From assembly GCA_032164295.1 (NCBI GenBank), contig JAJHTX010000002.1, positions 372,001 to 436,000 on the forward strand: 64,000 bases of DNA, written 5' to 3'. Shown piece by piece: positions 25,215 to 38,939 of this stretch. Under the pieces are notes generated by a model. It was not told where the DNA came from. It was given only the letters and a program-made list of their open reading frames with translations, and ran no database searches. Made by a program: the position numbers and the translations under genes. Each line of letters opens with the position of its first letter. Position 1 is the stretch's first letter. This DNA is from Inonotus obliquus (taxonomy: Eukaryota; Basidiomycota; Agaricomycetes; Hymenochaetales; Hymenochaetaceae).

Positions 25215-26786
25215 TACAATGGTGACTGGCAATTCCCTATCGACGCGCCATGTTTTTTCAGTCGGAGCTTACATATTCTCCATATTTGGCCAAAAATGGT
25301 GATCTGTATTTACCGGTTTTTTCTTTTCCACCTATGTCCCACCCAAGATCCGTAGTCAGTCGTCCCATACAAAACAAGCCCCTATGCAGGACTTATCATC
25401 AACTTAGATGTGAAAACCAACTATCACATGAAGTATTGACTGCATATAGTAAGTATATTCTCCTACATTCTTTATTAACCAACATGCCAGACATAAAGGC
25501 AAGGTCTTCGGCTAAGCTACTGATTTATTATTGCTGTCAATAACTTATGGTATGCTAGCTGAAATGGATGTTATCCTGCACGATTCTCCAGTCCGGATCT
25601 CCAGAGCTTTCTCAGCTAATTTTTTATATAGATGATGTCCCTATATGCATATATGTAAGTCGGACTATAGCAGGTATTTTCATGGAGATACAAGACTTGT
25701 TTTCTTATATTAAATATCATTAAGCATACATGTATACTTGTAAAACACATGAGGTCAGAAACTCCAATTTGTTTTGTGATATTATGCTGTACTTCATGAC
25801 TCCGAGCTGCCTTGCAATTCAATATCACGTGACCCAGTATCAACTTTTCGATTTGGCCGTTGAAACTTAAAGTACTCATCAATTTTTTGAAAGATTTCAA
25901 GACTAAATGCAATAAATGCATTAATTAATGCCTAGCTTCATCTTCTTTAAATGTTTATATGATGAAATCACTTCATTTCTTAGATATGGTCAAGAAATTG
26001 TTTCTGCATCTGCTTGATCACGTGATTGAATTTTCCTTTTTCCGTCGAGATTCAATGCACTATTTCAATGGGGACTGGCAATCCCCACGCGTTGTCCGTG
26101 TCCCCTTTTTTTGAATCGGAGCTTGTATACTTACTAAATATGGTATAAAACGATGATCCACGTTTACCGCCTTCCTCCAGACTTGTATGCTGCACTTCAA
26201 ATAATTAATCCATGTAAAATAAGGCAATAATGAGCATATAGTGACATCCTAGTGAGAATTCCACTAATCTCAATAAATAATATGCATATATGCTATATTT
26301 CACTATAAAACTGTAAATGACTGCTGGTCAACTTGGAATAATTGTAAGAGACAAGCCTTGGTAAGCTAGCCGCCTTTTCCCCTTAATATGAGTGACTACT
26401 ACAATAAAAGATATCAGAACTTTTTTCTGTACCCTAAGTAGCCTGGCAAACCTATCGATACCAAAGATGACTTTTATTACAAGTATCCCATTTGACAGCC
26501 GATCATGGTGGTAGGTCATAGACATGTCACCAGTTGTTTCTTATTTTATCTCAATCAAAGATGCATTTTATTACCCATAAAGTATAAGTATAATAATTAT
26601 GCATTTTCCGGGAGTTCTTATGATGCTGAGTTGTATTTTTATGCACTCATTCACGAAATTTGCAGGTGGTCAAGTCAGGTCACGTGATGTGTCTTTTCCT
26701 TATATGCTGAATCCTGCTGTGATACTTCGACTGAATGAACTCAACGAATTTTTGAAGGATTTCTGAGATCAATGTTTTAATTGTAT

Positions 26787-26791
26787 CTTTG
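26787..26791. repeat. Target-site duplication CTTTG (left copy)
   Basis: CTTTG directly precedes the left LTR and recurs at 38093-38097 directly after the right LTR. Five bases is the usual length for Ty3/gypsy integrases. Confidence 0.9.
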
Positions 26792-28253
26792 TGTTTATCT
26801 CCGTGGAGGGTTCGTTGATTCTTGATCGACGGACCAATCTGGCTAATTCCTCGGTTTGAGGGGTTAATCCAAATTCTACAATACTGGTTATGGAATTGCT
26901 AATCACCTTAGTGGACTGTGTAGCTGATCCGATCTGAAACAACTAGCAACTAACTAATATTGCAGTTGAACCTGATACTATAATCGTACAGTATTAAGTC
27001 GGCGTGAAGACGCGATTGTTATACTGATTGTTATTCACGATAAGGGAATATCGGGAATCGCACTACGTTGTGAGTAGCTCGTACCGTGCAGACAATAGGG
27101 AGAACAATCTAGTTGCAATCCGTATTTTTTTTTTTTAGCTTCACTTCGATTTCACACAATCGGTTTAGTTCAGCCGTGTCGCTACTGGTAATTTACTGGC
27201 TCGCAAGTAATTGATGTTACGATTTAACTTAGGGACTTATGGTAGGGTCCCTTGACTTGGATTAAACTGCTAGGTCGGCTCTACGATGGCCTCCTTATAT
27301 ACTAATTTACATGTGTGACGTTACTACCTTGTTACTTACTGTTTATGGTATTTATCTGTTTCTTCCTCTATGATACCTGGTCCGTGCTTTCTCTTTACTT
27401 CCTTCCTTATTTCACTACCTCTGTATTACTAGCCTCTCTTTGATTAGTTTAGTGCAGTGGGCGGTACCATCTCGCAGATAGGTTTGATTCTTGTATAGGT
27501 AACGGCACTTGATCTAATTCAGCTATTCTAGGTAATTGCTGAGTCATCTGTCCTTGTATTTCGGGTCTCGTTGGTATCGGTCGTGGTACAGTCAGCCAGT
27601 TTCGAATAGTTTGCACTCGTGTATATCCTGGCGTTGTCCTGGCGCGTTGTAGGGTTATCCCTTGTACTCCTTGTAGGTGTATTACTCCTCCGTACTGTTC
27701 TACCTTTGTTTCCATTATGGTATAGCCATAAGGTAATCCTCGGCTTATGTAATTCATTATCCAATGCCCCCAAGCATATGCAGTTCTCTCGTTCGTTCCG
27801 GCCTGGTCTCGCTTGTAGGCAATGTCAACATCTACTATAGCTGCGTCGCATCGTTCGTGTCTTCCTTCTTGTGCTACATTTCGTATTCCGATCATCATTA
27901 CAAAATATCCGGCGTCGTAGGATAATACTCGTATCTCCCTTTCATAAGCCTTTTGCATTTGTTGATTAGGGTTGTAGGTTAGTTCTACAAATCGACGTCG
28001 TATCATTATGTCGGCTTGTCCGTTCATTATGTCTCCGTGAGTGATCTCTCTGATTAATTCTCGCATTAGCCCTCCAGCTAGTTCTTTAGCTGGGCGGCAC
28101 GTGTTGCAACATCGTAATATATTGCTTCGCGGTGTCGGAGGAACGATGGGCTGTTCTAGTACTTGTATTACTGCCGCTAACCGTTCTTGTATCCAACGTA
28201 GGACGCTCATAGTTATTGGCTTATTAATGATGGATAATACTACCTTTCTAACA
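26792..28253 (-). repeat. 3' LTR (left copy)
   Basis: Identical to the right LTR by base-by-base reading except for two changes (about 27800 G versus A, and about 27875 A versus G). In element orientation U3 is 28253 to about 27270. It contains a TATA box (27294-27301) and, before it, a long ORF. A 12-base T run (27125-27136) lies in the R/U5 part. Confidence 0.95.
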
Positions 28254-28333
28254 CTCCCCCTTCTAGGAATGCATCTGACATAATCATAAGGAATGCATGA
28301 CACATATTCTTTATTCATAATTCTTAAGCCCAT
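27449..28333 (-). CDS. ORF running from the internal region through the PPT into the U3 of the 3' LTR (294 aa)
   Basis: ATG 28333 to TAA 27449. The first 26 codons are internal sequence and the rest is LTR. An LTR-internal ATG at 28210 would give 253 residues. The frame crosses the polypurine tract (RRGSVRK) and ends about 150 bases before the LTR TATA box. The protein looks folded rather than low-complexity, with WIQERLAAVIQVLEQPIVPP, CCNTCRPAKELAGGLMRELI, YDAGYFVMMIGIRNVAQEGR and HIQ-like ends. It has a CC-x2-C pair. I recognise no family. Retroviral U3 ORFs such as mouse mammary tumour virus sag are only an analogy of place. Confidence 0.65.
   Translation of the reverse strand: MGLRIMNKEYVSCIPYDYVRCIPRRGSVRKVVLSIINKPITMSVLRWIQERLAAVIQVLEQPIVPPTPRSNILRCCNTCRPAKELAGGLMRELIREITHGDIMNGQADIMIRRRFVELTYNPNQQMQKAYEREIRVLSYDAGYFVMMIGIRNVAQEGRHERCDAAIVDVDIAYKRDQAGTNERTAYAWGHWIMNYISRGLPYGYTIMETKVEQYGGVIHLQGVQGITLQRARTTPGYTRVQTIRNWLTVPRPIPTRPEIQGQMTQQLPRIAELDQVPLPIQESNLSARWYRPLH
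28254..28264 (-). promoter_or_regulatory. Polypurine tract
   Basis: AGAAGGGGGAG on the minus strand abuts the 3' LTR start, the usual place for plus-strand priming. The ORF that continues into U3 reads straight through it. Confidence 0.8.
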
Positions 28334-28339
28334 TTTGAG

Positions 28340-28708
28340 CTAAAATTCTTCTACATTTGACGACCATAACTGAATGTCCACCCATATTTCGTCGTCTGCG
28401 TTCTGTTCTTCTTCTAGCGCTCTCTCTAGCGCTGCTCGATTTACTAACTCGTTTCTCATTTGTTCTCTCGCGGTCCTTCTTATCTCGTAGATTTCGTTTA
28501 ATTGTTCCGGCGTCCAGTTATACCAAATAAACTCGTCGTCGGTCCAAAACGTTTCATGATCCCAGTGTGCTGGGTCGTTCGCTGCTGGCCAGTTTGCTCC
28601 CCACGTAGAGATGTCTCCCCAATCTTCATTTGAGGGCGCTGTTACGTTTGCCCATAGTTCTTCTTCTTGCGCCATCTGTTGTTCGGTTGGCCAGGGGATG
28701 AACGGCAT
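28340..28708 (-). CDS. Acidic tryptophan-rich protein after pol (122 aa)
   Basis: ATG 28708 to TAG 28340. The product is rich in Trp, Asp and Glu (NEDWGDISTWGANWPAANDP, HETFWTDDEFIWYNWTPEQL). The frame is open further upstream to about 28855 through a GAAGAT repeat (alternating Glu-Asp, about 28720-28755), but that part has no in-frame ATG. I recognise no family. The TAG is followed after six bases by the ATG (28333) of the ORF that enters the LTR. Confidence 0.6.
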   Translation of the reverse strand: MPFIPWPTEQQMAQEEELWANVTAPSNEDWGDISTWGANWPAANDPAHWDHETFWTDDEFIWYNWTPEQLNEIYEIRRTAREQMRNELVNRAALERALEEEQNADDEIWVDIQLWSSNVEEF

Positions 28709-28808
28709 CGGGATGTAATCGTCATCTTCATCTTCATCTTCATCTTCATCTTCATCTTCATTTCCATTTCCGTGCGCAAACGCTATCGGGTTTTGGTCTA
28801 CGCCTTCT

Positions 28809-28982
28809 TCAGGCGGGTGATTTAATTCCTGATAGCTGGTTAACGGTTGCTACCTCTCTATTGTAATGACTGCGCACCTGTCTCCATATCCAAAATTGCA
28901 TTCTCCATTGTATTATCAGACTCATCATGATTACCAATCCAAATGCTACTATCGCGAGTACGAGTTCTACGGTTTTCGACAT
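28809..28982 (-). CDS. Small single-span membrane protein after pol (57 aa)
   Basis: ATG 28982 to TGA 28809. The sequence begins MSKTVELVLAIVAFGLVIMM and continues SLIIQWRMQF, giving one strong membrane helix at about residues 6-25. A Trp/Arg-rich juxtamembrane part (WRMQFWIWRQVRSHYNR) and a short polar tail follow. It lies in the position where env-like genes sit in other retroelements, but resembles none I know. It overlaps the next ORF (acidic protein) in another frame. Confidence 0.6.
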   Translation of the reverse strand: MSKTVELVLAIVAFGLVIMMSLIIQWRMQFWIWRQVRSHYNREVATVNQLSGIKSPA

Positions 28983-29076
28983 TTTCGTTCGGCGTTGGTA
29001 CTCGTGTTTAGGGTTTTGATGGCGGTGGTGAAAGGAATTGATAAGGATACTGGTATCTCGTCGGCGACTCTTTTTC

Positions 29077-29084
29077 TTTATATA
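29077..29084 (-). promoter_or_regulatory. TATA-like box between pol and the downstream ORFs
   Basis: TATATAAA on the minus strand, overlapping the pol stop. From here the first ATG downstream is that of the 57-residue membrane protein, 95 bases away. It could drive a subgenomic RNA for the three ORFs after pol. Promoter activity is inference. Confidence 0.4.
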
Positions 29085-32000
29085 CCCTGTTCCTCGTGTG
29101 AACCCGTAGGTTTCCGCTTCGTTAACCGTCTACTTCTTTGCCGGATGCGGCCTCCGTTCTTATCTCTTTTTATGGCATGATCAGGATTACTCCTGATGTT
29201 GTCATCGTCTTCCTCCCAATGTTGTTCCTTGGATAGTGGACTTTTGACTCTCTGGTATGTTTCTTCTAGATTATCCGTTCTCGATGAACCACTAGGATTG
29301 GTGTGTAATGGGTTATTTTCGTCATACGCGAAATCCTTTATTTTTATCGGGTTCCTGGTATTTATCATCCTTCTCTTGGCTGTTCGTTTTCCTTTCTCTT
29401 CGTTTTCGTTATTCCTTCTAATCCATCCGTCGATGTAATTTGGTTTCTCCGCTTGTGAGTGTTTCTGATAGTATTCCTCGATCTTTTCCGTGGCGTTTCC
29501 TAGGTTCCCTAATGGCTCCCATGAATCGTGTTCTGCCCCGTATCCCTTCCAATTTATTAAGAAGTAGTATTTCCGTCCTGTTTTCCTTGAATTTAGTACT
29601 CTTTCTACTTCGTATTCGTCATCCTCTACAATGACTGGATTCAAAGGTACTTCTTGGTCTTCCGTGGTGTTGTCTACTATTCTATCTTGATATTTAATAA
29701 GATTGCCTGCATATAATACTGGATGTATGCGCATCTTTTTTGGTAATTCTAGTTCATAATTCAATGGCCCATGTTGTTTGATTATTCTATATGGTCCTAA
29801 ATTCTTCGGCCCTATCTTTCGGCTGGGTACTACTATATTGTAGTTTCTAGCATCTATCATTACCTTATCTCCTACCTTGAATTCTAATTCTGCTCTCCTA
29901 TGTTTATCGGTGTATCTCTTCATTTGTTCATTTGACGCCATCAGCGCTTGTTCTGCTTGTTTCTGTATCTCCCATACCTTTTTAATATATTCTTGTGCGT
30001 CTGGTGCGTTCGCTTGCCCCATGGGCAATATTTCCAATTTTCTTCCATAAAGGAGTTCAAATGGTGACTTCTTTATTGCTGCGTGTACTCTATTATTATA
30101 AGCAAATTCTGCCATGTGGATGTACTGCGCCCAGTTATCTTGCGCTGTGTTTACGTAATGCCTTAGGTATTGTTCTAGTTCCTGGTTTACTCTTTCGCTT
30201 TGCCCATCTGTTTGTGGGTGATGTGCCGTGCTAAGCGCATTGTCAATATTCATGGCTTTATATACTTCTTGTGTAAAGTTGCTTGTAAACTGTGGGCCTC
30301 TGTCGCTAGTAATTCTTTCTGGTAGTCCGTGTTTCGTGAATACGTGGTCCAATAGCATCTTCGCTGTTTTCTTACTGTCTGTTTCTTTAGTACAGGGAAT
30401 AAACGTTGCTATTTTTGAAAACCGGTCTACTACCACTAGTACCGCATCATAGCCCTCACTTTCTGGAAGTCCTGTAATGAAATCCATGGTGATATGTTTC
30501 CATGGTCCCGTTGGTATTTCCAATGGTTTCAGTGGTGGTTGTGTTCGTCCCCTCCTAGGTTTGTTCTTTTGACAAATGTGGCATGAGGCGACGTATTCCC
30601 TAATTTCTTCTTTCATGTCCGGCCACCAATAGGTTTCCTCTATTGCCGCTATCGTCTTGTCTGTTCCTGGATGTCCGCTCATTGGTGAGTCGTGGAAGGT
30701 ATATAATACATCCTTTTTCCGGTCCTGTCCGGGTATTAATTTATCGTTTGGCGGTACCCTTCCCTCGCTTGTGCTGTTTCTAGCTTGTCGATCAAATATT
30801 TTTGGGTTGACGAATCTCTCGCTTGGTAATACGATCACGTCCTTGTTATCATTCTTTCCTTCGTCATATCCTGATCTCCTGGATAGCGCATCGGCTCTCG
30901 TGTTCTTGCTTCCTGGTCGATAATCGATTTTGAATTGATATCTACTTAGTACGTCCGTGACCCATCGGGCCTGTTTTCGTCCGACTCGTTGCGCTTTCAT
31001 GAAGGTCTTCAGGTTCAACGCGTCGCATAGTACCAAGATAGTATGTTTCGCTCCTTCTAAATGGTGTCTCCAAGTAGTTAGGGCGATTACAATTGCGTAC
31101 AGTTCTTTTTCGGATACTGGCCAGTTCCTTTCAGTTGTTGTAAAGGATCTCGTGAGATAGGCAATAGGATGTAGTTTTCCTTCGTGTTCTTGTGATAATA
31201 CTGCTCCCATGCCATAGTCCGACGCATCTGTTTCTACTACGAAGGCTTTGTCATAGTCTGGTCTTCTTAGTATTGGTCCTGTGATTACGGCCTTTTTCAG
31301 GGCTTCAAACGACCTTTGTTGCTCTTCTCCCCATACAAAGGCTTGTTTCTTGGATTCTAGTTTCTTCATTGGCCTTGCTATTGCTGCATAGTCCTTGACA
31401 AATTTCCTATAGAAATTACAAAATCCTGTAAATTTCTTTATATCTCGTTTTTTTTGCGGTACTGGCCATTCTTCTATTGCTTTGAGTTTGTACGGGTCCA
31501 TTTTTAATCCGTCCTTGTTTACTATGAATCCCAGGTAGTCTAATTCTTGCTTGTTAAAGAAGCATTTTTCCGGTTTCAGATAGAAGTCTGCTCTTCGTAT
31601 TCGAGCTAGTACCTTCCTCGTCTTTTGTAACAGTTCTTCCTTTGTTTCAGCATAGATAATGATGTCATCTAGATAAATCATCACTCCATGGTTCAACATG
31701 TCTCCAAATAGTTCGTTCATAGCTCGTTGAAAGACTGCTGGCGAATTCATCATACCGAATTGCATTACCAATGGTTCAAATACTCCTTTATGTGTTCGGA
31801 ATGCGGCCTTATGTTCGTCTCCTTCTTGGATTCGTATATTATTGTATCCTGACCGAAGGTCTAGCGTGGTGAACCATTTGGCCTTTCCCAAATTGTCGGG
31901 TAGCGTGTGCATAATGGGTATCGGGTATTGATCTACTTCACAAACTGCATTTACTGGTCGGTAATCTATTACCATTCTTGCCCCTGCATCCTTCTTTCCG

Positions 32001-32455
32001 ACGAAGAATACCGGCATTGCGTACTTTGAAGTGGATCTCCTGATCCATCCTTTTGCCAAATTGTCTTCTATGAATTCTTCCACTGCCTTTTGTTCTAGTG
32101 GCGTTAGCGGATAAATGGTTCGTTTCGCTGTTGGTTCCTGTCCTTCTTTAAACACTATTTTCATATCCCATTGATTGTGCTTCGGTAGTCGTTTTGAATT
32201 GTTCTCGCTAAATATTTCCCCGAAATCCCATAGCTCCTTAGGCACCAAGGATTTCCAATGCTTAGTCGTTCCTATTTGTGATCGTCCTTGTTCCCTTGCT
32301 TTTTCTTGGGAGTACTTTTGTGCCATACTGCTATACTTATTTAATTTCTTAATTGCGGTTGTTTCCTGCTCGGTCCTTTCCTTTTTCATCCTGCTGTTTC
32401 GGCTATAATCTCGGTTTTGGGGTTTTTGATCGTTTACTTGTACAGTTATTCTCAT
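29078..32455 (-). CDS. pol: Pol: reverse transcriptase, RNase H, integrase, chromodomain
   Basis: 1125 residues, uninterrupted. RT: GARMVIDYRPVNAVCEVDQY, LRSGYNNIRI, FGMMNSPAVFQRAMNELFGD and the catalytic YLDDIIIYAE near residue 260. RNase H: VVETDASDYGMGAVLSQEH near 406. Integrase: an HHCC finger (HPGTDKT.., CHICQ) near 595-635, then HITMDFITGLPES (first D), ITSDRGPQFTSNFTQEVYK (second D, about 715) and HHPQTDGQSERVNQELEQYL (E). A GPY-like stretch (IGPKNLGPYRIIKQHGPLNY) follows. Chromodomain: YEVERVLNSRKTGRKYYFLI, then NWKGYGAEHDSWEP near 948-1000. ATG 32455 lies one codon after the protease TGA in the same frame, so pol is either made by readthrough or from that ATG. Confidence 0.95.
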   Translation of the reverse strand: MRITVQVNDQKPQNRDYSRNSRMKKERTEQETTAIKKLNKYSSMAQKYSQEKAREQGRSQIGTTKHWKSLVPKELWDFGEIFSENNSKRLPKHNQWDMKIVFKEGQEPTAKRTIYPLTPLEQKAVEEFIEDNLAKGWIRRSTSKYAMPVFFVGKKDAGARMVIDYRPVNAVCEVDQYPIPIMHTLPDNLGKAKWFTTLDLRSGYNNIRIQEGDEHKAAFRTHKGVFEPLVMQFGMMNSPAVFQRAMNELFGDMLNHGVMIYLDDIIIYAETKEELLQKTRKVLARIRRADFYLKPEKCFFNKQELDYLGFIVNKDGLKMDPYKLKAIEEWPVPQKKRDIKKFTGFCNFYRKFVKDYAAIARPMKKLESKKQAFVWGEEQQRSFEALKKAVITGPILRRPDYDKAFVVETDASDYGMGAVLSQEHEGKLHPIAYLTRSFTTTERNWPVSEKELYAIVIALTTWRHHLEGAKHTILVLCDALNLKTFMKAQRVGRKQARWVTDVLSRYQFKIDYRPGSKNTRADALSRRSGYDEGKNDNKDVIVLPSERFVNPKIFDRQARNSTSEGRVPPNDKLIPGQDRKKDVLYTFHDSPMSGHPGTDKTIAAIEETYWWPDMKEEIREYVASCHICQKNKPRRGRTQPPLKPLEIPTGPWKHITMDFITGLPESEGYDAVLVVVDRFSKIATFIPCTKETDSKKTAKMLLDHVFTKHGLPERITSDRGPQFTSNFTQEVYKAMNIDNALSTAHHPQTDGQSERVNQELEQYLRHYVNTAQDNWAQYIHMAEFAYNNRVHAAIKKSPFELLYGRKLEILPMGQANAPDAQEYIKKVWEIQKQAEQALMASNEQMKRYTDKHRRAELEFKVGDKVMIDARNYNIVVPSRKIGPKNLGPYRIIKQHGPLNYELELPKKMRIHPVLYAGNLIKYQDRIVDNTTEDQEVPLNPVIVEDDEYEVERVLNSRKTGRKYYFLINWKGYGAEHDSWEPLGNLGNATEKIEEYYQKHSQAEKPNYIDGWIRRNNENEEKGKRTAKRRMINTRNPIKIKDFAYDENNPLHTNPSGSSRTDNLEETYQRVKSPLSKEQHWEEDDDNIRSNPDHAIKRDKNGGRIRQRSRRLTKRKPTGSHEEQGI

Positions 32456-32458
32456 GTT

Positions 32459-33639
32459 TCAGTCGTATACCACCTCTTCTGGTTTAGTTTTGTTTTCCCG
32501 GGCTTTTTGGTAACTCGTTTTCCTTTCTCTAGTTATTCTACTTCCGCCTTGCCCTACTTGGTGCATCTTTGGCGGTGGTTGCAGTGGTAATCTTTTACTC
32601 GGTGTTTCCCCGGATATTATTTGTTCTATGCTTGGGAGTGCTATTTCCGTTCTTTCTGGTGATCTCGGCGGGTCTTCGAGGTTTGTTTCCTCTAGTCTTT
32701 GCAGTTCTTCAGCTAATTTCCCAAAGTTTCTCAAGATCTGTTCTTGGAATTCATCCCTTTCTTCCGTAGTTTCTTCTATTTCTTCGACTTCCTCTGGGTC
32801 GGATTCGATTCCTTCTTGCGACTCCCTATACTGCATTACTGGTGCTGGCAATACTGTGACATCCTTAGGCGTTAGTGTGGTTGGCCGTATTCCTTCTGGA
32901 GGCACCACAATCACCGCGGTTTGTACGGACCTTGGTGGTGGTGTCGGTAAATTCCCTAAGCTTGCCTTTCCCATGGTATTCCACCTTATTGTTAATCCCG
33001 TGTCTCCTTCGGATTCGGACCCTTCTTTGGAGTCTCTTCGCAGTGGAGATCTAACTTTACGGGATTTTCTTCTTCTTTTCTGTTGATATCGAGCCATTCT
33101 TTCCATCGTTATCATATTCCGAGTTCCTAACAATTTGGCTTCCCCAAATCTAGTTGTTACCTTACCCGTTTCCCAGTTTATGACTAGCTTATAGTTAGCT
33201 ATCCAATCATTTCCTAATAAAAATTTGTCTCCTGTAGTTTCTACTACTGCGAGTTCCATATTTCCTCTTGATGCTCCGGTATCCACCCATGCTCTAACGC
33301 TTTCCTTCCACCCGTTATTCGTTAGCGTTCCATCTGCATTTCTAATTTGGGCAGGATTCTGTTTCTTTATCGTATCTAGTCCATATCGTTTGACGGTATT
33401 GGGACTAATCGTTGTTAATACTGATCCTGAGTCGATCATTGCTGTTATTGGTAGATTTCTCTTTCCCCCCTGACTGAGGTATATCCTCAGTTTTGGATGA
33501 TCGGTATTTGGTTTTACCGGGGTCGTCCATCGGCGTTTCCATTTCGCTTTTACCCGCGACCATCTTCCTTCTGGTTTCGTTATGGTCCCTTTTCTTGCGC
33601 GCTGATCAGCCGATTCGATCAGTCGCTTTCTTGAAAATC
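32459..33639 (-). CDS. pro: Aspartic protease ORF (-1 frame to gag)
   Basis: The frame opens inside the end of gag, at about 33639 after an in-frame TAA, overlapping gag by about 24 bases in the -1 frame. It stays open to TGA 32459. The catalytic motif is AMIDSGSVLTTISP (DSG), with FLLGNDWIANYKLVINWETG as the second conserved block. The remaining two thirds are charged linker with Pro and Glu (PPPRSVQTAVIVVPPEG, EEVEEIEETTEERDEFQEQI). The overlap holds a run TTTT where -1 slippage could occur, but no canonical heptamer. The next frame (pol) is the same frame after the TGA. Confidence 0.82.
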
Positions 33640-34557
33640 CTCTTTAGGTTCTCTTTCTTTCTTGTTATCGCTAGCTTCGTTGGAGCCTTCATATTCCGAT
33701 TCTTCTCCTATCAATCTTCTCTTGAATTTTTGATAGCCCGGTCTACTCGGAGGTTTTCCTTCTCGTGGTTTCACTCTGCATTCTCTGGCAATGTGACCTG
33801 GTTTACCACATCTGTAACAACCCGTCGTATTCTTCGGTTTTTGGTTACTCCGGTACCTGGGTTTTCCTTTATTAGTCCTCTTCCTGAATTTTCGTACGTC
33901 TACGTCCATTGGGACTACATCGTCTTTTCTCCTCTGGGGTTTTTCCCAGTTGCTCGTGAAGGTCTTAGTTCTTGCCTTGGCGCCATATCTTGCGCCTTCT
34001 AGTGCTACTGCTCGGCTCATCCAGTTTGCTAGCGTCCATTTCGCGCTTTCTGTTTGTCCTGCTAATTGCGCATAAATATAATCTTTCATCCCTCTTCTGT
34101 ATAATACTGTAAGTGCCTTATCCGGCCATACTGCCTTATCTAATTCTGATACTATCTTTCCGAAATCGCTATTGTACTGCAATATGGAGCCTTCTTGTAC
34201 AATATTTACTAATTTATTCGTTGCGTCTTCTACAGGGTCATAGTATTGTTTGTGGTTACTCCTTATGTAGGTTAAGAATTCTTCAAACGTTTCCCATACT
34301 TGCCCTTTTCCTATCATATCCAACGGATTCGTTTTTAACGCTGTGCTTACCCACGTGGCAGCCTTCTCTTCCATGCATTGGCACATGATATAGGCTTTGT
34401 TACTATCTGTTAGTGCCGCTTGTTTGTTGCTCTGATTTTGCGCATCCATCCATGCAAAATTACTAATCATTTTATTTATAAATACATCCACGTTCTCCTT
34501 ATCTCTTCCTCTAAACTTCGGTGGTTTCTGCGACATACTCATTTGTAGGCTCGTCAT
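33619..34557 (-). CDS. gag: Gag (nucleocapsid-type zinc knuckle)
   Basis: A 312-residue structural protein of the virus-like particle. ATG 34557 is the first ATG of the predicted RNA and has A at -3. Alternative ATGs follow at 34542 and 34536. The retrotransposon gag region is visible in VFINKMISNFAWMDAQNQSN, WVSTALKTNPLDMIGKG and WETFEEFLTYIRSNHKQYYD. One CCHC knuckle, CYRCGKPGHIAREC, lies at about residues 246-259 after a basic stretch. Methionines are common here (about 15), unlike the methionine-free ORFs just upstream. Protease follows in the -1 frame. Confidence 0.9.
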   Translation of the reverse strand: MTSLQMSMSQKPPKFRGRDKENVDVFINKMISNFAWMDAQNQSNKQAALTDSNKAYIMCQCMEEKAATWVSTALKTNPLDMIGKGQVWETFEEFLTYIRSNHKQYYDPVEDATNKLVNIVQEGSILQYNSDFGKIVSELDKAVWPDKALTVLYRRGMKDYIYAQLAGQTESAKWTLANWMSRAVALEGARYGAKARTKTFTSNWEKPQRRKDDVVPMDVDVRKFRKRTNKGKPRYRSNQKPKNTTGCYRCGKPGHIARECRVKPREGKPPSRPGYQKFKRRLIGEESEYEGSNEASDNKKEREPKEDFQESD

Positions 34558-36103
34558 CTTCGCTTGAATCCCAAGTCAATCGGTCTCTAAGCTCCTGTTC
34601 CGAGATTTCGAGTTCCGCTGGGTCAAATTCTAGTAACGCTAAATGCCTTCGATAATTGTCTTCTAGGTATTCGTCCTCTGTAGTGTTGTTACTGTGGGCT
34701 TGACTAACGTCGCTGAATGGGCTGGAGAATTCTTCTGAATTGCCACTGGTCGTGGATCCTGGGGAATAATACAATACCAACCTTCCTCTCGTTTCTACCT
34801 CTTCAATTATCCCCTGTTCTCGTTCGGTTTTCTGGATTTCCCTGGTTTCTTCTTTCCTATTGTTCGCTTCCCTTTGTTTTCGGATTTGACCTATGATTCC
34901 TTTAGCTATTCTGTCCTGATCTGCTTTTCGATGATATTTGCGACTAATGGTTATTGTTGGGATTTGTTCGTTTGTCGGTTGTAGTTCTTCTTGTAGCTCT
35001 GTAATTACTTCCTCGACTATCTCGTTTATGTTTAACCTAGCCAATCCTCGCAGGTCTATGCGGACGTTCCCTGCCTGATCTCGAGTAACGTTAATGCCGC
35101 TTGGTAGTCTTCTCCCGTTATCAAATGTAATCCTGGAGGTACTACTTTCTTGGTTAATGCCTTCTTCTTCCTCCGTGATGGTAGTTAGGTTCTCACTTTC
35201 GTTCTGGGCCCTGAAGTCGACTACGTGTAATTGTATCTCTCCTTCTTCCGGTTCCTCGTCTGGAATAGTGGGAATTGGTGAGTCTGGGTGCCTGTAACTT
35301 TCGTCTCCGTTGAAGTCCCTAAACCCGTTTGGCTCTAAATTTGCCCAACGGCTCCCTGTTCCCCACTCTCCTCCGTTCTGCTCCGATTCGTTCGGTGATT
35401 CCCAACTGGCTTCGGACTGAGTTAGTTCCGGCGTTGGTTGATCTTGATCGTCTCCTAACAACGATCCGACGGTGTTCCAGTCTTGTTGGATTTCCGTTTC
35501 CTCTCGCTGTCTTTCTTCTCCTTCCCACGCGGCGAGTGCGACTCTGATATCCGACACTTGATTCCTTAGGCGTAGGAAGTTTGTCTCGATGCGGCTTACT
35601 TTATCTAATAATTCGCGCTGAAATTCGGCGTCTCGGTGCTCTCGGGCGGTCCACCGCTCTATATGCTCTTCTTGTCTTCGCTGTAGCGTCTCGAAGGTGT
35701 ATTGTACTTCTCTCGTTATTGTCCTGAGGATGCCTAGCTCTGTCTGGTTGTACCTTACTAACGTCCTGGTGATATGGTGTGCCTCGTCGTTACTCCTGTG
35801 CCAGCGGCTATGTTTCTCGATATGTTGATTGAACTGATGGTCTAGGTACACTCCCAACGCTTGATCCTTTTCAGCCTGTGTGTTGAGGATTAGTTCGATC
35901 CTTCCGGCCAATCGGTCCACTTGCGTTCCAATGGCAGTTGAGTAGTGATATATCCCCCACTGCGTTGCGTAGGGTTCGTAAATAGACAGGTATTGAAGTA
36001 GTCTTGTTCCTCGTCTGAGCGCACTTGCGATCGCTGTCCTATAGTAGATCGTACCAAATATGAATACTGTAACCAGCCCCGCGTATATTCCTTCGTAAGC
36101 CAC
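34511..36103 (-). CDS. Leader ORF B of the retrotransposon, methionine-free (530 codons), membrane-anchored coiled-coil candidate
   Basis: Open from about 36118 to the stop at 34511, with no ATG codon. The first plausible start is GTG 36103 in strong context (ATAGTGG: A at -3, G at +4). The first 25 residues hold a hydrophobic segment (IYAGLVTVFIFGTIYY) followed by Arg residues, like a signal anchor. Residues of about 80-215 are Glu/Gln/Arg-rich and probably coiled coil (TFETLQRRQEEHIERW). The middle is acidic with many Glu/Ser/Thr, and the end is acidic too. It overlaps the gag start by 47 bases, so its termination could feed reinitiation at gag. I recognise no family. The length of the frame and its biased composition argue for real coding. 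Confidence 0.6.
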   Translation of the reverse strand: MAYEGIYAGLVTVFIFGTIYYRTAIASALRRGTRLLQYLSIYEPYATQWGIYHYSTAIGTQVDRLAGRIELILNTQAEKDQALGVYLDHQFNQHIEKHSRWHRSNDEAHHITRTLVRYNQTELGILRTITREVQYTFETLQRRQEEHIERWTAREHRDAEFQRELLDKVSRIETNFLRLRNQVSDIRVALAAWEGEERQREETEIQQDWNTVGSLLGDDQDQPTPELTQSEASWESPNESEQNGGEWGTGSRWANLEPNGFRDFNGDESYRHPDSPIPTIPDEEPEEGEIQLHVVDFRAQNESENLTTITEEEEGINQESSTSRITFDNGRRLPSGINVTRDQAGNVRIDLRGLARLNINEIVEEVITELQEELQPTNEQIPTITISRKYHRKADQDRIAKGIIGQIRKQREANNRKEETREIQKTEREQGIIEEVETRGRLVLYYSPGSTTSGNSEEFSSPFSDVSQAHSNNTTEDEYLEDNYRRHLALLEFDPAELEISEQELRDRLTWDSSEDDEPTNEYVAETTEV

Positions 36104-36138
36104 TATAGTTATATTTAATTATATATTTGATTTTGTGC

Positions 36139-36528
36139 TTATACTTTACTTGCTTTTGCTTTCTCTTTCTTTCCGTTGAGTAGGGCTAGTAGTATTCGGT
36201 GTAATAGGTTGGCGTGTGCTTGCGCGGAGTATAACGTTCCTCCTCCGTTTTCTAGCGCTCTCTTAAATACACTCTCGTGTGGTGTAGGTGATACCTTGCC
36301 TATAACCCTTCCTGTCTTGAAATGATCCCAGTAGAGATCTTGCCAAATTGGTTGCCTCGCTATTAGCTTCCACGCGTCTATATCCTTCGGTGCTCCTCGT
36401 TCTTGTTCCTGCGTTTGTTTTGTACGCTCCAATGTTAACCCGACCTGTGGTTCTAGGTTTCGGTGGTTGTTACTGATGTCTATTTGCCGTTCCAGGTGGC
36501 CTACTGATTGGATAAGGGAATTATTCAA
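36139..36528 (-). CDS. Leader ORF A of the retrotransposon, methionine-free (129 codons)
   Basis: Open from after a TGA at about 36529 to TAA 36139, with no ATG at all. The first codon is TTG. The product would be polar, with DIDAWKLIARQPIWQDLYWD, ESVFKRALENGGGTLYSAQA and a basic end (GKKEKAKASKV). I recognise no family. It begins about 100 bases after the 5' LTR and lies wholly upstream of gag. If translated, it needs non-AUG initiation or translation coupled to another frame. It may also be a chance frame, although its length and composition look coding. Confidence 0.5.
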   Translation of the reverse strand: MNNSLIQSVGHLERQIDISNNHRNLEPQVGLTLERTKQTQEQERGAPKDIDAWKLIARQPIWQDLYWDHFKTGRVIGKVSPTPHESVFKRALENGGGTLYSAQAHANLLHRILLALLNGKKEKAKASKV

Positions 36529-36617
36529 TCAGTCTATTTGAATGACTAGTTCGTGCTATCACAATTACCTTTATTGGCAGTAGTCTGCGCTTGTTCCTTT
36601 AAGCTTGCCAAGAAGGG

Positions 36618-36628
36618 AGTTTAATCCA
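36618..36628 (-). promoter_or_regulatory. Candidate primer-binding site (self-priming type)
   Basis: TGGATTAAACT on the minus strand begins two bases after the 5' LTR. It is the exact complement of 11 nt at the predicted RNA start (37107-37097). I cannot exclude a tRNA primer from sequence alone. Confidence 0.6.
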
Positions 36629-37096
36629 GATGTTTATCTCCGTGGAGGGTTCGTTGATTCTTGATCGACGGACCAATCTGGCTAATTCCTCGGTTTGAGG
36701 GGTTAATCCAAATTCTACAATACTGGTTATGGAATTGCTAATCACCTTAGTGGACTGTGTAGCTGATCCGATCTGAAACAACTAGCAACTAACTAATATT
36801 GCAGTTGAACCTGATACTATAATCGTACAGTATTAAGTCGGCGTGAAGACGCGATTGTTATACTGATTGTTATTCACGATAAGGGAATATCGGGAATCGC
36901 ACTACGTTGTGAGTAGCTCGTACCGTGCAGACAATAGGGAGAACAATCTAGTTGCAATCCGTATTTTTTTTTTTTAGCTTCACTTCGATTTCACACAATC
37001 GGTTTAGTTCAGCCGTGTCGCTACTGGTAATTTACTGGCTCGCAAGTAATTGATGTTACGATTTAACTTAGGGACTTATGGTAGGGTCCCTTGACT

Positions 37097-37107
37097 TGGA
37101 TTAAACT
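37097..37107 (-). promoter_or_regulatory. Predicted RNA 5' end, 11-nt self-primer sequence
   Basis: The minus strand reads AGTTTAATCCA from 37107. This is exactly complementary to the candidate PBS at 36618-36628, and the match stops at 11 nt on both sides. In Tf1 the first 11 nt of the RNA fold back and prime reverse transcription in the same way. The position about 33 bases after the TATA box fits a transcription start. Confidence 0.6.
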
Positions 37108-37132
37108 GCTAGGTCGGCTCTACGATGGCCTC

Positions 37133-37140
37133 CTTATATA
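37133..37140 (-). promoter_or_regulatory. TATA box of the 5' LTR
   Basis: On the minus strand it reads TATATAAG. It lies downstream of the U3 ORF and about 33 bases upstream of the predicted RNA 5' end (37107). The same box is at 27294-27301 in the 3' LTR. Confidence 0.7.
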
Positions 37141-37287
37141 CTAATTTACATGTGTGACGTTACTACCTTGTTACTTACTGTTTATGGTATTTATCTGTTT
37201 CTTCCTCTATGATACCTGGTCCGTGCTTTCTCTTTACTTCCTTCCTTATTTCACTACCTCTGTATTACTAGCCTCTCTTTGATTAGT

Positions 37288-38049
37288 TTAGTGCAGTGGG
37301 CGGTACCATCTCGCAGATAGGTTTGATTCTTGTATAGGTAACGGCACTTGATCTAATTCAGCTATTCTAGGTAATTGCTGAGTCATCTGTCCTTGTATTT
37401 CGGGTCTCGTTGGTATCGGTCGTGGTACAGTCAGCCAGTTTCGAATAGTTTGCACTCGTGTATATCCTGGCGTTGTCCTGGCGCGTTGTAGGGTTATCCC
37501 TTGTACTCCTTGTAGGTGTATTACTCCTCCGTACTGTTCTACCTTTGTTTCCATTATGGTATAGCCATAAGGTAATCCTCGGCTTATGTAATTCATTATC
37601 CAATGCCCCCAAGCATATGCAGTTCTCTCGTTCGTTCCAGCCTGGTCTCGCTTGTAGGCAATGTCAACATCTACTATAGCTGCGTCGCATCGTTCGTGTC
37701 TTCCTTCTTGTGCTACGTTTCGTATTCCGATCATCATTACAAAATATCCGGCGTCGTAGGATAATACTCGTATCTCCCTTTCATAAGCCTTTTGCATTTG
37801 TTGATTAGGGTTGTAGGTTAGTTCTACAAATCGACGTCGTATCATTATGTCGGCTTGTCCGTTCATTATGTCTCCGTGAGTGATCTCTCTGATTAATTCT
37901 CGCATTAGCCCTCCAGCTAGTTCTTTAGCTGGGCGGCACGTGTTGCAACATCGTAATATATTGCTTCGCGGTGTCGGAGGAACGATGGGCTGTTCTAGTA
38001 CTTGTATTACTGCCGCTAACCGTTCTTGTATCCAACGTAGGACGCTCAT
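37288..38049 (-). CDS. Copy of the U3 ORF in the 5' LTR (253 aa)
   Basis: Begins at the LTR-internal ATG 38049, 44 bases from the LTR edge, and matches the 3' LTR copy residue for residue. The two nucleotide differences between the LTRs fall in this ORF and are both silent (GCC/GCT for Ala, AAT/AAC for Asn). As it lies upstream of the LTR TATA box, this copy would be transcribed only from outside the element. Confidence 0.55.
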   Translation of the reverse strand: MSVLRWIQERLAAVIQVLEQPIVPPTPRSNILRCCNTCRPAKELAGGLMRELIREITHGDIMNGQADIMIRRRFVELTYNPNQQMQKAYEREIRVLSYDAGYFVMMIGIRNVAQEGRHERCDAAIVDVDIAYKRDQAGTNERTAYAWGHWIMNYISRGLPYGYTIMETKVEQYGGVIHLQGVQGITLQRARTTPGYTRVQTIRNWLTVPRPIPTRPEIQGQMTQQLPRIAELDQVPLPIQESNLSARWYRPLH

Positions 38050-38092
38050 AGTTATTGGCTTATTAATGATGGATAATACTACCTTTCTAACA

Positions 38093-38097
38093 CTTTG
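38093..38097. repeat. Target-site duplication CTTTG (right copy)
   Basis: Matches 26787-26791 exactly and abuts the right LTR. The pair defines the integration point inside hAT-like copy B. Confidence 0.9.
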
Positions 38098-38939
38098 CAT
38101 GTCTGCCTTCGATTTGTACAAAAAACATTTTGTAGAAATTGCTTCGTTCGCCAGTTATAACCCAGTACTAGGCCATATCTCAATGGTTTTTTGGAGAATT
38201 TTTAAATTTTTGACGGAAATAGTTTCATTTAGATCAGATATATGCTATTGACAATTTATTTTTGCATTTATTGTGTTGTGGAAGGGGGAAGATGAAGTTG
38301 AATGAGTCTTTCACTGACCGGTAAATTCATGTGCTTAAGCGAACGCCGGCACGACGCGGCATAGACTGTGGGAACGCATGCGAGTCACATAGGGATTGCC
38401 AGTCCCTAATTTCAATGTTCAGAACTCAATGAATTTTTCAAGGATTTGTGACTCAGTGCACAAACCATATTTTTTCATGTCTGCCTTCATTTTGTTCAAA
38501 AAACATTTTGTAGAAATTGCTTGGATCCTAAGATATGATGTATAACCACCCAATATCTCATTGATTTTTTGAACAAATTTTGAATTGTTTTGATATTTAT
38601 GCTCCCCAGCACCATAGAAATGGTTTCCACTACTTTATAAGGCTTTGTTTGTGCTATGGAACAGGAAGTGTGAAGGCGAAAATGTCTTCAAAAAACCGGT
38701 AAATCGCTTAATCTAAGCGATAGTCGGCATGCCCGTGGGAAATCGATGTTTTGCAATAGGGGATTGCCAGTCACCAGTTGTACATTTTACTGCTCGCACT
38801 AGTTAGATAGGAGGGCGGAGAATTACATGACATGATGTAGATGGCACGTCGGCCTAACTGCAGCACTACACTACTATTATCCCTCGAAACTCTATCATTC
38901 ATCATCGAAACGCGGATGAGATCAGAATTACGCTCTAGC

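Follow-up and report, generated by a model that had tools for sequence, protein, structure and literature searches.

In rice tungro bacilliform virus (RTBV) and the badnaviruses, ribosomes reach open reading frame (ORF) III by leaky scanning through ORFs I and II; the first start codon of RTBV is AUU, and its ORFs are free of internal AUGs over ~895 nt (PMC5902531, PMC3542737). Leaky scanning also gives access to a GUG-started ORF in Panicum mosaic virus (PMV), where the context is cuaGUGg, and in Pelargonium line pattern virus (PLPV), and a weak codon upstream of gag, CUG for the glyco-Gag of murine leukaemia virus (MuLV) and a weak AUG in feline leukaemia virus (FeLV), yields a signal-peptide product (PMC3542737). 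Among long terminal repeat (LTR) retrotransposons, plant Tat elements have an ORF upstream of gag that encodes an additional RNase H (PMC10508981), additional genes, of which a dUTPase is named, are attributed to one clade of fungal chromoviruses (PMC2774666), and the first 11 nt of the Tf1 RNA are complementary to its primer-binding site (PBS) (PMC7175516). Here we describe an LTR retrotransposon on the minus strand of a 64,000-nucleotide stretch of Inonotus obliquus DNA (GenBank assembly GCA_032164295.1, contig JAJHTX010000002.1, positions 372,001 to 436,000; hereafter the window, numbered from its first letter), in which a predicted leader of about 2.55 kb precedes gag without a single ATG in any frame. 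The order of its pol domains and its Ty3-type capsid make it a chromodomain Ty3/gypsy element (chromovirus). We refer to its family as F1 and to two diverged families of the same genome as F2 and F3; feature coordinates are collected in Table 1.

Absence of ATG between the predicted RNA 5' end and gag

The minus strand contains no ATG in any frame over the 2,591 bases from 34558 to 37148, and the flanking plus-strand CATs at 34555 and 37149 correspond to the start codon of gag itself (34557-34555) and to an ATG at 37151-37149, in agreement with a preliminary description of this DNA. The runner-up minus-strand ATG-free gap in the window is 662, within the R-U5 of the other LTR, and the longest gap for any other trinucleotide in the window is 1,403. 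The 35-40 ATGs that the preliminary description expected by chance are close to the 40.7 calculated from base composition, and the stricter dinucleotide-preserving shuffles lower this figure to 23.1 ± 3.5 (minimum 13 in 1,000 shuffles), or to 22.9 ± 3.7 (minimum 10 in 500 shuffles) for the 2,552 nt from 37109 to gag, which hold none. ATG is the sole trinucleotide missing from the leader (z -6.3), followed in depletion by AAA (-3.6), TTT (-3.3) and TGA (-3.1). Its opposite-strand counterpart CAT is present 29 times, none of the nine near-cognate start codons is significantly depleted (the lowest, ATA, has z -1.2), and CTG, GTG, TTG and ACG occur more often than expected. Along the coding strand, ATGs number 18 in the 985 nt of U3, none in the 2,550 nt of the leader, 113 in the 5,480 nt of gag-pol and 30 in the 824 nt between pol and the 3' LTR.

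The upstream limit of the zone falls near the predicted start of the RNA. An 11-nt self-primer, the exact complement of the PBS, would form the first 11 nt of the RNA and places its 5' end at 37107, reading AGTTTAATCC..., which would give a leader of 2,550 nt in which the AUG of gag is the first AUG; the earlier claim that gag owns the first AUG about 2.55 kb from the 5' end thus holds for the predicted RNA, and the TATA box lies within one base of the 37133-37140 given for it. The self-primer is kept in 14/14 full F1 leaders and in both F2 copies, the PBS TGGATTAAACT in 3/3 aligned F1/F2 sequences, and the TATA box as the exact TATATAAG in 12/14 full F1 leaders, with TATAAATA aligned there in both F2 copies. 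F3 has a different, 16-nt self-primer/PBS pair (ATCTTTCTTTCGATCG/CGATCGAAAGAAAGAT) at the corresponding places, also 2 nt from the LTR end, and our reading of the 5' end is strengthened because two families keep complementarity with different letters. These two separate pairs make a transcription start close to gag, which the preliminary description had contemplated, unlikely. The ATG-free zone begins a short way upstream of the 5' end that the pairing (11 nt in F1/F2, 16 nt in F3) predicts, and the last upstream ATG starts 44 nt before the predicted RNA start (12 copies measured; 45 in one).

The absence persists among the copies of F1. We counted ATGs in 14 full leaders, window copy included (four partial leaders, L015-L018, were left out), and found none in nine and one in each of the other five, rather than the many ATGs in intact copies that had been considered earlier. 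All five ATGs are private and at CpG, four of them replacing an ACG of the other copies (ACG or ACA at one of these sites) and the fifth a GTG preceded by C, as expected from decay after insertion. None of the 78 shared variants makes an ATG (3.7 expected), compared with five of the 90 private ones (7.9 expected). This pattern fits ATG removal while the elements transpose, followed by decay after insertion. Of the 168 variants among the leaders L001-L014, 34 are CpG transitions (26 private), a pattern suggestive of CpG methylation decay in this genome.

The depletion recurs, less completely, in F2 and F3. F2 is represented by two copies, C6 and C13 (gag identity 55% and 51%), which are 89% alike over 6 kb and keep ORFs A and B described below; the C6 leader has 2 ATGs in 2,597 nt (24.1 expected). 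In F3 (gag identity ~23%, reverse transcriptase (RT) 51%), the leader of locus L059 has 1 ATG in 1,762 nt (13.6 expected). This ATG, common to both F3 leaders counted, opens a 293-codon ORF in a poor context (GATATATGC, T at -3 and C at +4), and in L059 it is followed by 835 AUG-free nt up to gag. The F3 leader ORF is without a stop in 15 of 17 genome matches, one of the 15 being a diverged copy in a longer frame, and it has no detectable similarity to ORF B and overlaps gag by 47 nt, the same length as ORF B in F1. We did not score a fourth, degraded family (L060). Two side observations concern these families. At G000:C6:2507470-2510745, an F3-related locus, the matches to the leader ORF and to RT each report an open frame of 1,700 codons, perhaps a single fused one, and at L055:3626-3627 an F3-type LTR ends within the LTR of F2 C13, which truncates C13 by an apparent nested insertion.

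We also used synonymous shuffles, in which the protein and its codon usage are held fixed, in line with the codon-shuffled control proposed in the preliminary description. ORF B up to gag contains 0 ATGs against 10.1 ± 2.3 expected (0/3,000 shuffles reach this value) and ORF A 0 against 2.4. In F2 C6, ORF B has 1 against 7.3 (P 0.0007) and ORF A 0 against 2.8 (P 0.011), and the F3 leader ORF past its own start has 0 against 2.5. Observed and expected counts are at par in gag (25/24.6), pol (70/69.9) and an ORF in U3 (25/24.0).

Two ORFs without AUG in the leader

The preliminary description had noted that the leader holds long ORFs, which are present; it overlooked that these are, judged by their conservation and substitution pattern, two conserved genes, ORFs A and B, which lack AUG and evolve under purifying selection. 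ORF A is stop-free in 16/16 F1 matches spanning codons 1-129 and has homologues in F2 at 36% and 35% identity, the second with 2 stops. ORF B is stop-free in 15/16 near-full F1 matches; it is read in a different frame from gag, and its last 47 nt overlap gag, inside which it ends. The only three ATGs of ORF B are all out of frame and all within this overlap, that of gag included. Variants among the 14 copies fall at first, second and third codon positions 26/14/68 times in ORF B and 4/6/19 times in ORF A, and the ratio of nonsynonymous to synonymous polymorphism (pN/pS) of the 13 other full leaders versus the window copy is 0.15 for ORF B and 0.14 for ORF A. Indels among copies are of 3 or 6 nt in ORF B and of 1, 2, 3, 5, 7 and 8 nt outside the ORFs. 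We dropped a coupling of ORF A to ORF B by frameshifting because the indels in the spacer between them vary in length among copies. Since both ORFs appear to be under purifying selection, the arrangement probably serves not only to protect gag but to make three proteins in all, with the products of ORFs A and B, and any function of theirs, being predicted ones.

In both F1 and F2 the N-terminus of ORF B is hydrophobic, averaging 1.6 and 2.15, respectively, on the Kyte-Doolittle scale over a segment of 19 residues. In F1, just TTA AAT ATA ACT ATA GTG separates the upstream stop from this segment, and the start of ORF B is thereby confined. The GTG at 36103 has A at -3 and G at +4 and stands within a block, ATAGTGGCTTAC, that is invariant in F1 and both F2 copies; the GTG in this context is unchanged in 16/18 F1 loci, and the remaining two matches start downstream of it. 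GUG 36103 is the probable start codon. No ORF B homologue was found at E <= 0.001 with a single sequence or with the F1+F2 alignment (7,992 and 7,993 candidates scored). An ORF at L055:906-1670, just upstream of an F3-type LTR, also has a strong N-terminal hydrophobic segment and has no similarity to ORF B. The structure predicted for ORF A from two sequences had a mean confidence (pLDDT) of 43.7 and was unusable.

Proposed scanning through the leader and its alternatives

We regard it as likely that the 2.55-kb leader of the genomic RNA is polycistronic and read by leaky scanning, with AUGs purged up to gag. Ribosomes would enter at the cap, near 37107, and scan downstream. A minority would produce the ORF A and ORF B proteins by non-AUG initiation, for ORF B most likely at GUG 36103 (AUAGUGG), and the majority would scan on and initiate gag at the first AUG (34557, A at -3). 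Non-AUG starts are nearly always inefficient (PMC3542737), and most ribosomes would therefore pass them. Because an AUG in any frame between the cap site and gag would draw ribosomes away, purifying selection would remove it, and would spare near-cognate codons. What points to scanning from cap to gag is that AUG is lost in all frames, including the ~580 nt ahead of the first ORF, together with the limits of the loss. Selection for scanning ribosomes to reach gag, proposed in the preliminary description, is thus favoured by the copies, the families, the shuffles and the predicted 5' end.

Several observations weigh against this account. The RNA 5' end is placed by prediction rather than by mapping. 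The leader of F2 C13 has 8 ATGs in 2,586 nt (26.8 expected), one ATG is common to both F2 leaders, and the F3 leader of L058 has 2 ATGs in 1,879 nt (16.0 expected), the extra one being ACG in L059; the F3 counts come from these 2 leaders out of 17 places in the genome with the leader ORF. The comparison covers F1-F3, in a genome that has other Ty3 families as well (RT identity 41-46%). In favour of scanning, the eight longest ATG-free gaps on both strands of 127.8 kb all fall within F1-F3 leaders, in the sense orientation, and some of them begin just upstream of the predicted RNA 5' end, but the loci compared were picked for carrying these elements. Taken alone, the synonymous tests are weak for ORF A (P 0.035) and the F3 ORF (P 0.026), and the test on shared variants reaches only P 0.025. 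No start codon can be named for ORF A, where the near-cognates shared among copies are in poor contexts. Compared with gag (0.38/2.3), neither ORF A (0.71/1.18) nor codons 1-95 of ORF B (0.48/0.75) show a strikingly low dN/dS between F1 and F2. The 5' 968 nt of the leader fold more stably than 20/20 shuffles (z -2.7), so that unaided scanning is not guaranteed; the last 984 nt do not (z 0.1).

Other routes to gag were weighed against the same data. Gag might be translated from a spliced RNA from which an intron had removed most of the leader, with ORFs A and B left to unspliced RNA. A 68-nt intron-like stretch is kept in F1 and F2: it was found by pattern in 16/18 F1 loci (the other two matches begin downstream) and in both F2 copies. 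Its splicing would lengthen ORF A at the upstream side in both families; across the joined flanks the frame stays open and continues into ORF A in F1 and in F2 C6, the frame of F2 C13 having stops further on. Being short and placed ahead of nearly the whole of ORF A and of ORF B, the stretch would not bring gag nearer the cap if removed, and no leader-removing intron is known here, the 68-nt stretch being the only one looked at, with no splice-site scan made. Splicing out the leader would also make its inner AUGs irrelevant to gag and leave the AUG loss in all frames unexplained, and we consider it unlikely. Termination and reinitiation after ORF B, aided by the 47-nt overlap, might instead deliver ribosomes to gag, and an overlap of this length is present both in F1 ORF B and in the dissimilar F3 leader ORF; however, the F2 ORF B terminates ahead of the gag AUG, and ORF B itself lacks an AUG start. 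Moreover, AUGs inside ORF B would go unnoticed by ribosomes already translating it, and reinitiation thus needs no AUG loss over 2.5 kb, which makes this route quite unlikely.

We find it very unlikely that gag is expressed from an internal promoter or an internal ribosome entry site (IRES) near 34.6 kb, with some other cause for the absence of AUG. No known Rfam element was found at the gathering threshold in 26500-38500, with which a novel IRES would still be compatible, but the AUG-free zone spans the whole distance from the predicted cap site to gag, the other families are depleted between the same points, and an internal start would give the distal 2 kb no protection. The stability of the 5' 968 nt would suit ribosomes that bypass the 5' part by shunting, like those of RTBV and cauliflower mosaic virus (CaMV), and scan only the part with the ORFs. 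Pararetroviral shunting as described needs a short AUG-started upstream ORF (uORF) (PMC5902531), whereas the F1 leader has no AUG at all between 37107 and gag, so a shunt of the RTBV type is not matched, and with the fold only suggestive we hold this highly improbable. Finally, the leader is A-rich and T-poor, and the absence of AUG might follow from base composition, from codon usage or from a mutational bias. The shuffles retain ~23 (dinucleotide) and 10 (synonymous) ATGs, CAT is abundant, near-cognates are undepleted, and the observed CpG mutations add ATGs instead of removing them; we dropped this explanation, whose probability, short of an ATG-specific mutational process, is practically negligible.

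Scanning as proposed here would resemble that of RTBV and the badnaviruses, where long consecutive ORFs that precede the main polyprotein are likewise kept clear of internal AUGs and most ribosomes go on scanning. Next to the AUU of RTBV, a non-AUG start is a candidate here, ORF B having no AUG before gag and a conserved AUAGUGG. It would differ from RTBV, as far as the cited accounts of that virus go, in extending over 2,550 nt with no AUG and no uORF, compared with ~895 nt, a uORF-dependent shunt and an AUG on ORF II, and the leader is nearly three times the RTBV scanning distance. Unlike RTBV, ORF B has no homologue found, and unlike the Caulimoviridae, whose genome has no LTRs, the present element is integrated, with LTRs and a target-site duplication. 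The Caulimoviridae are relatives of Ty3/gypsy elements, and the parallel bears on the origin of pararetroviral polycistronic translation. The ORF B context auaGUGg is close to the cuaGUGg of PMV, where, as in PLPV, the ORF concerned is described as a movement protein of a plant RNA virus. The choice of CUG or weak AUG in the cited account of MuLV and FeLV parallels F1 and F3, but glyco-Gag is an in-frame N-terminal extension of Gag, whereas ORF B uses another frame and terminates 47 nt into gag. Like the Tat elements and the fungal clade as the cited passages present them, this element has extra genes, here leader ORFs without a Pfam match and without AUG. As in Tf1/sushi self-priming elements, the 11 RNA-leading nt would pair with the PBS, and the integrase has a Tf2-1-like SH3 and a chromodomain; self-priming of the Tf1 type involves RNase H cleavage after base 11, which frees the primer. 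The AUG-less leader genes set it apart, the passages on Tf1 mentioning none and the Tf1 leader lying outside the comparison. The preliminary description knew of no Ty3/gypsy element with such an arrangement. That is consistent with searches of an open-access collection of literature, in which we recognised no AUG-free polycistronic leader in any LTR retrotransposon listed (most subscription journals were outside its scope), although the principle itself is known from plant pararetroviruses.

On balance we lean slightly towards a broader reading, in which the 5' quarter of a self-priming LTR lineage may be an AUG-less operon for two accessory proteins, one probably membrane-anchored, kept at low set ratios to Gag by non-AUG starts and 2.5-kb scanning, with a weak AUG in a related family; within the Metaviridae it would be the counterpart, evolved separately, of glyco-Gag and of leaky scanning in pararetroviruses. 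Such leaders would offer a natural test of how far eukaryotic ribosomes scan and how strongly selection polices AUGs, with the signature and its limits visible from sequence alone in F1 and, less completely, in two further families of one genome. AUG-reliant gene finders would miss accessory genes of this kind, and LTR elements with 'long untranslated leaders' therefore deserve re-examination.

The carrier element

The window copy is bounded by LTRs of 1,462 bp each, with 2 mismatches over 1,464 aligned positions, and by the target-site duplication CAAAG, which abuts TGTTAG at one end and AACA at the other. Gag matches Ty3_capsid (1.1e-9) and zf-CCHC (7e-7), a zinc knuckle, and pol reads aspartyl protease, RVT_1, RNase H, H2C2, rve, SH3_Tf2-1 and Chromo. 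A stop near 32459 breaks pol in this copy; in several others its frame runs uninterrupted for 1,521 codons. A search for gag homologues gave two matches only (55% and 40%), and P0001 is 78% identical to F2 gag; no relatives were found in IMG/VR contigs with gag or RT as single-protein queries.

Table 1 Features of the element and its leader in the window.
Feature	Position	Strand	Basis or remark
Whole LTR retrotransposon, F1 family, ~11.3 kb	26792..38092	-	LTR alignment and flanks
5' LTR (TGTT...AACA)	36631..38092	-	LTR alignment, boundaries read
TATA box TATATAAGG	37132..37140	-	33 nt upstream of the predicted RNA 5' end
ATG-free zone	34558..37148	-	Trinucleotide scan and shuffles
Self-primer AGTTTAATCCA, predicted first 11 nt of RNA	37097..37107	-	Exact PBS complement
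PBS TGGATTAAACT, 2 nt inside LTR end	36618..36628	-	Complementarity
Putative intron-like stretch, 68 nt (GTAATT...CTGAT...TAG)	36501..36568	-	Near PBS; F1/F2 conservation
ORF A, 129 codons counted from upstream stop, no Met	36139..36528	-	Conservation and pN/pS
ORF B, 530 codons, probable GUG start (AUAGUGG), no Met	34511..36103	-	Conservation and pN/pS
gag (Ty3_capsid, CCHC)	33619..34557	-	Pfam
pol (protease, RT, RNase H, integrase, chromodomain)	29078..33439	-	Pfam
ORF C, 122 codons, acidic, between pol and U3 ORF	28340..28708	-	No Pfam match
U3-encoded ORF, 294 codons, ATG start just before 3' LTR	27449..28333	-	No Pfam match
3' LTR	26792..28253	-	LTR alignment

The U3 ORF is also present at 37288-38049 and has homologues in the LTRs of F2 (43%) and F3 (23%), with 125 genome matches, apparent solo LTRs among them. 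Its position is reminiscent of sag in mouse mammary tumour virus (MMTV) and of lentiviral nef.

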